From positions 1 to 46,974 of the forward strand of contig JAQURP010000004.1 of NCBI GenBank assembly GCA_028715545.1: a stretch of DNA of 46,974 nt, in the 5' to 3' direction. A model generated the notes under the pieces. That model searched no databases and had not been told where the DNA came from. It saw only the letters and a program-made list of their open reading frames with translations. Positions 28,578 to 35,939 of the stretch are shown one piece after another. Within the stretch, counting starts at the first letter, position 1, and each line of letters opens with the position of its first letter. A program made the position numbers and the translations under genes. The DNA is from Methanocellales archaeon. Lineage in GTDB: Archaea; Halobacteriota; UBA148.

Positions 28578-28585
28578 GTGAAAAA

Positions 28586-29008
28586 ATGGTCATCAAGAAA
28601 CATGTTGGCACGAACACGTATGTGATTTTGAGCAGGTCTTTTGTTGATCGAGACTTCAACTTGGATGGAAACCTGATAGTCGGTCGGAAAGTGTACTTCT
28701 GGGGTGACTTGGCTGTATCTGGCGCACTAGAACTCGGAAAGTCCTCAGAAATCAAAGGGAACTTGACAGCAAGTTATGCCCTACTTGGGCCCAGAACCCA
28801 CATTAAGGGAAACGTCCAAGTTGAAAATGACCTAACATTGTTGGACGGAGCTAGGACAGATGGCGATGTAATCTGTGGAGGCAATGCATTGATCAGACCA
28901 GGAGTAACGACGGACCATATTCAGGCTGGTGGAGATGTAAAACTGGTTGGTAAGGTTAACACCAAGCGAGTTAAAGCCGGTGGTAAAGTTATCTCGAGAA
29001 CATCATAA
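28586..29008 (+). CDS. Bactofilin-like polymer-forming protein
   Basis: A 140-residue protein made of short beta-strand repeats (GNLIVGRKVYFWGDLAVSG, GNLTASYALLGPRTHIKGN, GDVICGGNALIRPG, GDVKLVGKVN), the right-handed beta-helix pattern of bactofilins (former DUF583). Bacterial bactofilins polymerise into filaments that scaffold cell-shape enzymes at the membrane. No transmembrane or long tail is seen. The gene follows the ether-lipid prenyltransferase by eight bases with a TAGGTGA ribosome site, which suggests a membrane-associated role. Archaeal function is not established. Confidence 0.82.
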   Translation: MVIKKHVGTNTYVILSRSFVDRDFNLDGNLIVGRKVYFWGDLAVSGALELGKSSEIKGNLTASYALLGPRTHIKGNVQVENDLTLLDGARTDGDVICGGNALIRPGVTTDHIQAGGDVKLVGKVNTKRVKAGGKVISRTS

Positions 29009-29026
29009 TCAAGCTTTCTGACGCTC

Positions 29027-29084
29027 TTTACATTTGGTAGAAGATTTTTACTATATTTACATTTGGTAGAAGATTTTTACTATA
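29027..29084 (+). repeat. Perfect tandem duplication of a 29-bp promoter-like unit
   Basis: Two identical 29-base units (29027-29055 and 29056-29084) abut each other. Each holds TTTGGTAGAAG and ends in a TATA-like TTTTTACTATA. They lie 53 bases before the winged-helix gene, so they may be a doubled promoter or operator for the regulator-larA operon. Confidence 0.8.
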
Positions 29085-29136
29085 ATGATTCAAAACCTTT
29101 ATCGGATTTTAAGATAAATATGTTTGGGAGAGAAAA

Positions 29137-29643
29137 ATGCCAAAAGGGACAAGAATAGTTAATGATCCTGCTGATCTGGTTCCGTTGATAAGAGCATTTG
29201 GGTCAGATATACATAAAAAGGTGTTTAATGGACTTTCTTCTGGCTGGATGACCAAAAAGGAGCTTGAAAAAGAAGTGGGTTTTGACGTAGTTGAAAGTCT
29301 CAAAATACTCCAAAATGGTGGGTTGATCCAGAGCAGGTGGAGAATGTCCGGGAATGTGGAGGTTCCCGAAAAAGAGTTTTATACCTCCTATTCTGATGTG
29401 AGAGCCAATTTTCAATGTGGGTTGGATGAGCTGAGCAACTTGATACGCATCGCATTTTCCGATGAAGAAGAATTTCTTGAAATAGTTCTCAAGATAGAGG
29501 AAGAGATAAAGATGGGAAATACATCGACAGTTGGCTTGTGTCGAGCTCTAAATCAAAATGCCTGCTTCATTAGGGGGGTTGCAAAGCGATCTAATAAATT
29601 AATGGTCAGGGGCCAGAAGCTTTTGTTGACTGAGGAAAAGTAA
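29137..29643 (+). CDS. Winged-helix (ArsR-like) transcription regulator
   Basis: 168 residues. The first 75 form a winged-helix pattern (SDIHKKVFNGLSSGWMTKKELEKEVGFDVVESLKILQNGGLIQSRWRM), similar to archaeal ArsR-type regulators. The remaining part is helical with two cysteines (VGLCRALNQNACFIRGVAKRS) that could sense a ligand or metal. It overlaps larA by one base (TAATG), so the two are translationally coupled and the regulator probably controls larA and itself through the duplicated upstream element. Confidence 0.75.
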   Translation: MPKGTRIVNDPADLVPLIRAFGSDIHKKVFNGLSSGWMTKKELEKEVGFDVVESLKILQNGGLIQSRWRMSGNVEVPEKEFYTSYSDVRANFQCGLDELSNLIRIAFSDEEEFLEIVLKIEEEIKMGNTSTVGLCRALNQNACFIRGVAKRSNKLMVRGQKLLLTEEK

Positions 29644-30881
29644 TGGATAGATTGAGTCATCTATCGCTAAAATATGGGAAGAAAGAGATCGATTTAACTT
29701 TACCCTCTAATTCACAAATTGTCAAACCCAACGAGATTCCAGGACAGGATGAAGAGGTGGAAATCAAAAGAGGGCTGATGAGTCCTATAAGCAGCAAAAA
29801 ACTTTCTGAGTTGGTGCTTCCTCACGAGAAGACGGCAATCATTGTCAGCGATATTACGCGTCCCACGCCAACTTCAAAATTGTTGCCCCCCTTGTTAGAA
29901 GAGCTGAACAAAGGTGGTGTATCCAGCGAAGACTTGGTAGTAGTTTTTGCAACAGGGCTTCACAGAAAATTGATCGAAGAAGAGAGGAGATCGTTGATCG
30001 GAGACGTTTATGATCAAATTAAGTGCATCAATCATGATGTAGATGATTGTACATATCTTGGCAACACTAGGAGTGGGACTAAAGTCAGCATCCTAAGGGA
30101 TGTCTTCGATGCAGATGTCGTGATCTGTGTTGGCACCATAGAGCTTCATTACTTTGCAGGTTACAGTGGTGGTGCGAAGTCCATTTTGCCAGGCGTCAGT
30201 TCAAGGGAGACGATAGAAATGAATCATAAACTGATGCTTTTGCCAAATGCTGCATCCGGATGCGCGGACAGTCCAGTCCGAAAGGATATGGAAGAGGCCG
30301 GAGCAATGTTGGGGATAGATTTCATCCTGAATGTGGTCTTGAATGCTAAAAGAGAAATCGTTAGGGCAGTTGCGGGGCACCCGGTACATGCGCATAGGGC
30401 CGGAGCAATTTATGCAAATCAAATTTACAAGATTCCCATAAGGGAGAGGGCAGACATAGTGATCACATCTGCTGGTGGCGCGCCCAAGGATCTCAATGTT
30501 TATCAAGCATACAAAGCCTTGGACAACGCAAAACATGCAGTCTCAAAGGGTGGTTCAATCATCTTGGTCGCCGAATGCCCAGAGGGGATGGGCAGTGCTG
30601 TGCTTGAGTCCTGGGTAAGAGAGGCGAATAGCCCCAGAGATGTAATCGATCGGCTAGAGAGAAATTTCAAGTTAGGGGGACATATGGCTGCTGCAATCGC
30701 ACGTATAGCGGAAAAGCATGACATTTACATCCTATCAGAGCTGCCAACTCATCTGGCGGAAAAATCCTTCTTCATACCGGTGAAAGATGTAGGGGTGGCT
30801 TTGGAGGCGGCGATGAAAAAGTATAGGGATGCCAAGATAATCGTAATGCCTTATGGCAACTCCACGCTTCCGTTTACTTGA
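29643..30881 (+). CDS. larA: LarA family nickel-pincer racemase (lactate racemase-like)
   Basis: LarA enzymes racemise or epimerise 2-hydroxy acids using a nickel-pincer nucleotide covalently bound to a lysine. The key residues align with the Lactobacillus enzyme: Asp70 and Arg73 (SDITRPTPTS), His107 (ATGLHR), His169 and Lys179 (ELHYFAGYSGGAKS) and His195 (EMNHKL). The Lys that holds the cofactor is therefore present. Length 412 is normal. The cofactor-making genes larB, larC and larE are not in the window. Many LarA homologues act on substrates other than lactate, so the substrate is open. It ends eight bases inside the convergent fumarase gene. Confidence 0.85.
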   Translation: MDRLSHLSLKYGKKEIDLTLPSNSQIVKPNEIPGQDEEVEIKRGLMSPISSKKLSELVLPHEKTAIIVSDITRPTPTSKLLPPLLEELNKGGVSSEDLVVVFATGLHRKLIEEERRSLIGDVYDQIKCINHDVDDCTYLGNTRSGTKVSILRDVFDADVVICVGTIELHYFAGYSGGAKSILPGVSSRETIEMNHKLMLLPNAASGCADSPVRKDMEEAGAMLGIDFILNVVLNAKREIVRAVAGHPVHAHRAGAIYANQIYKIPIRERADIVITSAGGAPKDLNVYQAYKALDNAKHAVSKGGSIILVAECPEGMGSAVLESWVREANSPRDVIDRLERNFKLGGHMAAAIARIAEKHDIYILSELPTHLAEKSFFIPVKDVGVALEAAMKKYRDAKIIVMPYGNSTLPFT

Positions 30882-31434
30882 ACTTTTTCATTTGCTGATC
30901 TGCCTTTTTTTGAACTTCATCAAACAGATCGTTATCTTGGGCATCTGTCGCGACGATGAGCGGTCCGAAATTCTCTACTTCAAGAACCCAAACCGACTCT
31001 GCCATCCCGAGGTCTGTCCAATAATTGCCGACGACACGCTTTATCTGCTTGGCTGCGGTTGATCCACACCCGCCGGTATAGGTTAGATAAACACATTTAT
31101 CGCGTAATACTTCTGTGATATTCATTCCGCCCTTTCCGATGATGACCCTGATCTCAAAACGTTTTAGCAGCTCTGTGGTCATCTTGCTCATTCTAGCACT
31201 GGTGGTTGGTCCGGCCGCCAGTGCTGTATTTTTTCGCATAAGGGGTCCACAGTGATATATGGTTGCACCCTTCAGTTCGAACGGTATTTTTTTACCTTCT
31301 CCGCTCCACTGCAATAATCGCTCATGTGCCTTATCCCGGGCAGTAATGATGATGCCGTTTAGGTATACGACATCTCCTGCAACCAGCTTAATCACGTCAT
31401 TCGCGCTCAGCGGCGTTGTTAACTGGTACTCCAT
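30874..31434 (-). CDS. Fumarate hydratase, beta subunit (class I)
   Basis: The C-terminal-type subunit of the two-subunit iron-sulfur fumarase, which interconverts fumarate and malate. The 186 residues match FumB-type subunits: LTTPLSANDVIKLVAGDVVYLNGIIITARDKAHERL, IYHCGPLM, AGPTTSARM and VYLTYTGGCGSTAAKQIKRV. I start it at ATG 31434 (MEYQLTTPLS), one base past the alpha-subunit stop; frames that extend further upstream lie inside the alpha gene. Overlaps the 3' end of larA by eight bases. In methanogens fumarase serves the incomplete citric acid cycle that supplies biosynthesis. Confidence 0.95.
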   Translation of the reverse strand: MEYQLTTPLSANDVIKLVAGDVVYLNGIIITARDKAHERLLQWSGEGKKIPFELKGATIYHCGPLMRKNTALAAGPTTSARMSKMTTELLKRFEIRVIIGKGGMNITEVLRDKCVYLTYTGGCGSTAAKQIKRVVGNYWTDLGMAESVWVLEVENFGPLIVATDAQDNDLFDEVQKKADQQMKKFK

Positions 31435-31435
31435 T

Positions 31436-32257
31436 TTAGTCCTCCAAAGTGATTGACGCTCTGCGGGCAGCCCAACACTGTATGTTGACCGCCACAGGCA
31501 GGGATGCAGTGTGACATCTACCGTATTCAACGTTCACCGCCATCGCAGTAGTACTTCCACCAAGGCCCATTGGACCCAAGCCCAGTGAGTTAATTTCATC
31601 CAACAATTCTCGTTCAAACGTATCCATGGGTTTGTCCAATTTCCGTAGTACAGCCTTCTTGGCAAGTTTTGCTGCTCCGTCAAAGGTGCCACCGATGCCA
31701 ACACCCACTATGATGGGCGGGCATGACCTACCACCTGCATTTTTCACTGTCTCCAATACAAAACGCTTGATATTTTTTACCTCGGATGGGTTGAACATTC
31801 GCAATGCAGACATGTTTTCTGAGCCCGATCCTTTGGGTGCGACCGTTATTTTGACTTTGTTCCCTTTCACGAGAGAAAGGTTTACGTCCATGAGTTCATT
31901 TTCAGAGCCCTCTCTAGTGATGGGGTGCACTGCATTATGTCTGAGCGGTATCTCCTTCGTTGCCTTGGCAACCCCTTCTTGGATTGCCTCCACAAGGTCG
32001 AAATCGATCTCTGCGTCATAGCCCACATCCACAAAAAAAACAGGGGTACCGGTGTCTTGACACATGGGAGTGCCGTGTTCCTTAGCAAGCTCGGCATTTT
32101 CTATCATCTGCCTCAACTGCGTGCGAGCGATTTGATTGCTCTCTGTTTTCAGTGCAGATTTCAGAGCGGAAAGGACGTCTTCCGGCAGCTCGATTTCTGC
32201 CTGGCGCAGCAGTTGAACGACTTCGTTTACGACCTGCTTTCGAGTTATTTTGCTCAC
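31436..32257 (-). CDS. Fumarate hydratase, alpha subunit (class I)
   Basis: Carries the [4Fe-4S] cluster of the heterodimeric fumarase. The cysteine regions are visible: GTPMCQDTGTPVFFVDVG, NAGGRSCPPIIVGVGIGGTFDGAAKLAKKA and the C-terminal EYGRCHTASLPVAVN. The 273 residues are normal. The start is GTG 32257, confirmed by the conserved N-terminus SKITRKQVVNEVVQLLRQAE. It forms an operon with the beta subunit one base downstream. The promoter region upstream is duplicated elsewhere (34994-35074), including the first codons of this gene. Confidence 0.95.
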   Translation of the reverse strand: MSKITRKQVVNEVVQLLRQAEIELPEDVLSALKSALKTESNQIARTQLRQMIENAELAKEHGTPMCQDTGTPVFFVDVGYDAEIDFDLVEAIQEGVAKATKEIPLRHNAVHPITREGSENELMDVNLSLVKGNKVKITVAPKGSGSENMSALRMFNPSEVKNIKRFVLETVKNAGGRSCPPIIVGVGIGGTFDGAAKLAKKAVLRKLDKPMDTFERELLDEINSLGLGPMGLGGSTTAMAVNVEYGRCHTASLPVAVNIQCWAARRASITLED

Positions 32258-35204: not shown

Positions 35205-35939
35205 ATGTCTATAATACCTGAAAAGGAAAAGAAAAAAATTTACTCATTGTTAAAAGAAAATTACTTGGTATTTGTACCTTTTTTAATTTTTTTAACAATG
35301 CTTCTTTTTAATAGCGTTATAGAAAAATATTTCGTTGACTATCAAGGATTATCTAAAAAAATAGTACCAATTTTATTTATCACATCAATATTCCCCTTTA
35401 TATTATCATTCAAATACTTCAACAAAAAGGGATTGATTGAATTCGAAGATATAGGATTCACTCGAACTGAATGGAAATTTAATTTATTTTTTGGTCTTCT
35501 AACTGGAATTTTTTTGGGGTTGCTCGCCCGGGCTTTCGTGTTGATGGGGGTTCCGATTGGGGCGTTACCAAGAGGAGAAGGACTTTACTTCTTCCTTGGT
35601 TACTTTTTTATGGTGTGTATTTCGGCTCCGTTATGGGAAGAGATAGCCTTCAGAGGATTACTTTTCAATTTCTTTGAGAGATATTTCAATTACCTAGGGA
35701 AATTCACTTACCTAGGGAAATTCACAGAAAAACTAGACGTAAAAGATTTTTTAATCATCGTAATTGTATCCTCGGTTTTTCTAATGATGCATTTAGATAG
35801 GGTGCCTGCAATGCGATTCTTGATTCTTTTAACCTCTCTCGTCTACACTACAACGTACTATAAAACTAGGAATATTATACTACCGATAGTTGCTCATTCC
35901 GTGTATAACCTATTTATTTTTCTTCTTCTTTTTAACTGA
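35205..35939 (+). CDS. CPBP family intramembrane metalloprotease (Abi-like)
   Basis: A 244-residue protein with about seven to eight membrane helices. The CPBP motifs are present: EEIAFR (Glu145, Glu146, Arg150), a histidine in MMHLDR (His196), and HSVYN (His231, Asn235) at the end. Members include CAAX-processing proteases and bacteriocin-immunity proteins; the substrate cannot be inferred. Between motifs 1 and 2 the sequence contains the tandem hexapeptide YLGKFTYLGKFT, caused by an in-frame 18-base duplication at 35690-35725. A TATA-like ACAAATATGTTTAAA lies upstream near 35141-35156. Confidence 0.85.
   Translation: MSIIPEKEKKKIYSLLKENYLVFVPFLIFLTMLLFNSVIEKYFVDYQGLSKKIVPILFITSIFPFILSFKYFNKKGLIEFEDIGFTRTEWKFNLFFGLLTGIFLGLLARAFVLMGVPIGALPRGEGLYFFLGYFFMVCISAPLWEEIAFRGLLFNFFERYFNYLGKFTYLGKFTEKLDVKDFLIIVIVSSVFLMMHLDRVPAMRFLILLTSLVYTTTYYKTRNIILPIVAHSVYNLFIFLLLFN
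35690..35725 (+). repeat. In-frame 18-bp tandem duplication inside the CPBP gene
   Basis: Two identical units (35690-35707 and 35708-35725) of TTACCTAGGGAAATTCAC encode the repeat YLGKFT twice in a loop between membrane segments. It is recent, since no base differs. Confidence 0.9.

Follow-up and report, generated by a model that had tools for sequence, protein, structure and literature searches.

A perfect 29-bp tandem duplication beside the likely core promoter of a regulator and LarA-type gene pair in a draft Methanocellales genome

Here, we report a perfect tandem repeat of two 29-bp units in a draft genome of a Methanocellales archaeon, which is probably a recent, ordinary, and largely neutral duplication beside the promoter of a regulator gene and a LarA-type gene. 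As a duplication it is ordinary, and no special switch is indicated. The assembly (G000) comprises 1,225,610 bases in 76 contigs; the window, meaning the whole stretch of DNA that was analyzed, is contig C4 (46,974 nt). The features discussed below are as follows.

28586-29008, forward strand: bactofilin-domain protein, the last gene before the repeat (PF04519, E 8e-10)
29027-29055, forward strand: copy 1 of the 29-bp unit; the nearest two relatives read have one unit only
29056-29084, forward strand: copy 2 of the unit, in the slot of the single G003 unit; the G002 unit lies 1 bp nearer the promoter
29045-29049, forward strand: T5 tract of copy 1, a possible archaeal U-tract terminator, 36 nt after the bactofilin stop codon (putative function)
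29074-29078, forward strand: T5 tract of copy 2, 65 nt after the bactofilin stop codon (putative function)
29089-29113, forward strand: conserved element TTCAAAACCTTTATCGGATTTTAAG, read from sequence conservation as the BRE plus TATA-like core promoter of the regulator operon
29137-29643, forward strand: 168-aa regulator, PF09824 (ArsR transcriptional regulator; Pfam E 6.9e-54)
29643-30881, forward strand: 412-aa LarA-superfamily protein, above the NCBIfam LarAH6 malate racemase cut-off

Tandem Repeats Finder returned 29027-29084 as a perfect tandem (period 29, 2.0 copies, 100% matches) of the unit TTTACATTTGGTAGAAGATTTTTACTATA, which was absent from 100 of 100 dinucleotide shuffles and had no third match in the 1.23-Mb assembly (both at up to 3 mismatches), confirming at the level of the assembled sequence the perfect repeat described in an earlier, sequence-only reading. 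Identity ends sharply on both sides: unit 1 is preceded by c where the unit's last base is a, and unit 2 is followed by a where the unit begins with t. The repeat starts 18 bp past the stop codon of the bactofilin-domain gene (the genes upstream are ubiA and bactofilin) and ends 4 bp upstream of the conserved 25-mer and 52 bp upstream of the regulator start. The promoter-side location given in the earlier reading likewise holds, with both units directly upstream of the regulator's likely promoter.

Within the genus, G003 carries one unit (3 differences) in the place of copy 2, ending 52 bp before the regulator ATG; G002 also carries one, with one change in the first 25 bases and an end 1 bp shorter; and in a third species, G001, the region is longer and diverged, with a possible partial remnant of the unit by eye. 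No recognizable unit was found by eye upstream of the regulator in the next genus (G004). The unit was present in 3 of the 11 genomes of the order, and a search with all 29 bases, allowing 3 mismatches, matched 2 of 60 genomes, namely the present assembly, which was counted, and G003. The adjacent near-identical copies here, with one copy at the orthologous site in G003 and G002, mark a duplication. Either this lineage acquired the second copy or the relatives lost it, and recent acquisition is favored because the two copies are perfectly identical. Four-fold sites in three neighboring genes differ between G000 and G003 at 45 of 282 positions (16%); if the copies dated from that species split, the chance of 0 differences in 29 bases would be P ~0.006 (0.84^29), in line with the recency that had been claimed from the identity of the units. 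These comparisons suggest a recent, lineage-specific second copy; the two units could also have been kept alike by gene conversion.

No clear excess of conservation over four-fold sites, and hence no clear constraint, is seen in the unit itself: it differs from that of G003 at 3 of 29 bases, against 16% of four-fold sites (P = 0.30), and from that of G002 at 1 of the first 25 bases, against 15.4% (P = 0.08), the latter value leaving room for mild constraint. An ATAA block around the unit end is partly shared with G001 and G004 (by eye), so that part may predate the unit.

Short tandem duplications in prokaryotic intergenic DNA arise by slippage or end joining, and they recur in this assembly. 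Exact tandem repeats with a period of 15 to 200 were counted in 434,974 bases (internally repetitive units left out; open reading frames of at least 100 aa used), giving 12 rows, of which 9 were automatically assigned to coding and 3 to non-coding DNA (periods 29, 17, and 20). One 23-bp row (L059:15360) was moved by the analyst from coding to non-coding, as it precedes a likely start where the crude caller had an open reading frame; non-coding duplications then number four, the present repeat included and, as a point against neutrality, the longest. The 8 remaining coding rows (7 arrays) all have periods divisible by three and the other 4 rows none, which suggests that, as a class, these repeats are not mere assembly errors, and the recurrence of similar perfect duplications means that such events outside genes are not rare here. 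A single row (22 bp) was found in 160,000 bases of relatives. The excerpts of the literature matches listed hold no archaeal case of such a promoter-side duplication.

Several of these rows were inspected individually. The perfect 23-bp tandem at L059:15360-15405, which directly precedes the probable start of a different gene, is single-copy in G003, the sole one of three relatives with a match (G002 and G001 had none). A perfect 18-bp duplication at 35690-35725 lies in frame inside a 244-aa open reading frame; relatives match only 27 bp outside that repeat and nothing over it. Alignments of relatives do not reach over the duplication at L059:7180, and the row at L052:3925, flagged as non-coding, may hold a start codon.

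On the simplest reading, we infer that the ancestor had a single 29-bp intergenic segment here, downstream of ubiA and bactofilin and upstream of the likely core promoter of the operon for the regulator and the malate racemase, and that a second was added in tandem in this lineage. The copies are undiverged, and neither the 25-mer nor its spacing to the ATG has altered. The effect would most likely be nil or slight, amounting to an extra 29 bases and an additional T5 tract ahead of the promoter. With two perfect copies, a single unit in the nearest relatives, and a kind of event that recurs in the assembly, the repeat resembles other short intergenic duplications of prokaryotes; unlike those made by classical slippage, it has no end homology visible to explain the copying.

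The likely core promoter lies downstream of both units, at 29089-29113, judging by conservation. When matched as a degenerate pattern allowing three mismatches, this 25-mer occurred exactly once per genome in 10 of the 11 genomes of the order, 47 to 50 bp upstream of the regulator start in those with a match; it was not matched in G007 (76% complete). It resembles an archaeal BRE plus TATA box, and it is identical in G000, G003, and G002, which also share its 48-bp spacing to the ATG, so that the repeat neither contains nor shifts the inferred parts of the core promoter. In a sample of the assembly, a AAANNTTTAT-type motif occurred in 42 of 111 upstream regions, against 23 of 111 for the reversed motif (up to 1 mismatch), and exact matches numbered 10 against 3; 22 of 49 hits lie 30 to 49 bp before the called start, with starts called crudely and the regulator's own region among the 111. 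Control of the archaeal regulator gene is thus better sought in the 25-mer than in the repeat. In some genomes the element contains, by eye, the inverted repeat TTCAAA..TTTGAA, which may be an operator for autoregulation; the palindrome is good in G010 and G006 and weaker in G000, G001, G004, and G005 (by eye), and we do not claim it as the regulator's site.

The most concrete functional rival to a neutral duplication is termination, in which two U5 tracts 29 nt apart would end the ubiA-bactofilin transcript better and shield the regulator promoter from read-through; we consider this unlikely. With five U residues each, 36 and 65 nt past the stop codon, the tracts are long enough for an archaeal U-tract terminator (at least U4); the single units of G003 and G002 carry a T5 as well, and T tracts of 8 and 5 were seen by eye in G001. 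For Methanococcus maripaludis, the median efficiency of termination is 30, 43.3, 52.1, and 55.5% for 0, 1, 2, and >2 U4 tracts, and two such tracts are the minimum for efficient binding of aCPSF1 (excerpted text of PMC8716108). The doubled U5 tract after a stop codon resembles these aCPSF1-read terminators, although the 29 nt between tract starts exceeds the 23-nt motif in the same excerpt. T tracts are also little enriched over A tracts in 177 3' flanks of this assembly (T5, 63 versus A5, 53; T4, 98 versus A4, 100; T6, 34 versus A6, 22; two or more T5, 20 flanks versus 9 for A5), with mononucleotide shuffles averaging 32.6 flanks with T5 (observed, 63 of 177). By eye, G004 is without a T4 at the site, and no bacterial-type terminator was found in 28580-29700.

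RNA folds were compared with shuffles and count against a neutral reading. The G000 unit forms a weak hairpin that few shuffles equal (z, -2.4; 4 of 200); a closely similar hairpin forms in the G002 unit (z, -1.3), and the best fold of the G003 unit is a different one (z, -1.6). For the 128-nt leader with both units, z was -1.8, with 9 of 200 shuffles as good. No Rfam match was found in the window at gathering scores.

We also doubt that the duplication tunes expression, a reading in which the doubled U5 tract or a doubled binding site would alter termination or insulation and hence the level of the malate racemase regulator operon, with an adjustable copy number. A tandem unit beside a promoter, the copy number of which could in principle change, as in the switch suggested in the sequence-only reading, recalls phase-variable promoter repeats such as those of Mycobacterium tuberculosis (PMC12817950, seen in excerpt); unlike those, the likely core promoter here is outside the unit, there are two copies only, and one genome of the species was compared.

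Similarly doubtful is a doubled operator or upstream activating site, with the PF09824 protein or another regulator binding each unit upstream of the BRE. A gap of 4 bp separates the units from the 25-mer on its upstream flank, which is a usual place for archaeal activator sites; regulator genes often control themselves. The sequence-only reading had named the downstream winged-helix protein as the natural binder, a proposal that fits poorly with the distribution of the two: the regulator protein was matched in 49 of 60 genomes, whereas the unit occurs in 3 of 11 genomes of the order (2 of 60 searched at up to 3 mismatches, its own included), so the unit is not a general operator of the regulator family. 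The best inverted repeat in the unit is not significant, being equaled by 842 of 1,000 shuffles (675 for the G003 unit and 953 for the G002 unit), and its inner inverted repeat was not found elsewhere in a 435-kb sample. The assembly has no second locus with the unit, and it is the 25-mer, not the unit, that is conserved alongside the regulator. The unit may yet be a site special to the three unit-bearing species, or one bound by this one regulator protein.

An assembly artefact, with one unit in the organism and two in the contig, appears quite improbable. The assembly is a draft of 76 contigs, the nearest relatives have one unit, and exactly 2.0 copies without extension is what an unmerged overlap would give. 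However, the nearer contig end is ~18 kb away from the site, reads are usually long relative to 58 bp, depending on the platform, and the divisibility by three of all coding periods, and of none of the other 4, makes short tandems look biological as a class.

The claim that the repeat doubles the promoter, in which the ACTATA unit ends would act as TATA boxes and give extra start sites, is very unlikely: the conserved BRE/TATA-like element is single and downstream of both units, its spacing to the ATG is kept, and the TATA-like unit end is not conserved (ACTATA here, ACCATA in G003, and ACCTAA in G002), whereas the 25-mer is. Each unit holds a bacterial sigma-70-like pattern (TTTACA-16-TACTAT, 9/12), and 28580-29700 has 6 such sites versus 1.6 in shuffles, which may underlie the first impression of promoter doubling; such patterns are inapplicable and carry no weight because the host is an archaeon. 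A T-rich motif, obtained de novo by expectation maximization from 158 upstream regions, gives the unit ends 3.7 and 3.5 bits, against 0.6 for the 25-mer region, in the window and also prefers the unit region in G003 and G002, which counts weakly against the 25-mer as promoter; however, it is spread across the whole 100 bp without a clear peak, is therefore not promoter-like, and was dropped for want of a clear positional peak.

The regulator-larA operon named in the sequence-only reading is reasonable, the regulator and LarA-like open reading frames sharing one base (29643), and the best-scoring model for the gene there called larA is that of the LarAH6-type malate racemases (534.7 bits; cut-off, 500), its lactate racemase score falling below the cut-off (328.7 bits; cut-off, 460). 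Both bacteria and archaea are reported to have malate racemases (excerpt of PMC11770544). A LarA-type gene directly follows the regulator in 7 of 30 loci read (L003 to L007, L009, and L010), some loci being cut short. Homologues of the regulator protein in named genomes comprised 3 loci at 78 to 82% identity (Methanocellaceae archaeon UBA148/Methanocellales archaeon) and 1 at 47% (Methanothrix). A search of solved structures gave no match to the regulator at E ≤1, and PF09824 is not mentioned among the literature matches listed, which does not by itself show its absence from print.

The LarAH6-type gene faces a two-part fumarase (30874-32257, reverse strand), the whole region spanning 29643-32257. 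Fumarase genes also adjoin the regulator in L011 and L012 and lie 0.9 kb from it in L008, with no racemase found between; this proximity without a racemase between hints at malate or fumarate as the regulator's putative signal. For the nickel-insertion family PF01969, of the LarC type, G007 has no match, seven further genomes among the 11 have a single match, and two each were found in G002, G003, and G000 (in the last at G000:C39:10703-11848 and G000:C9:12700-13704).
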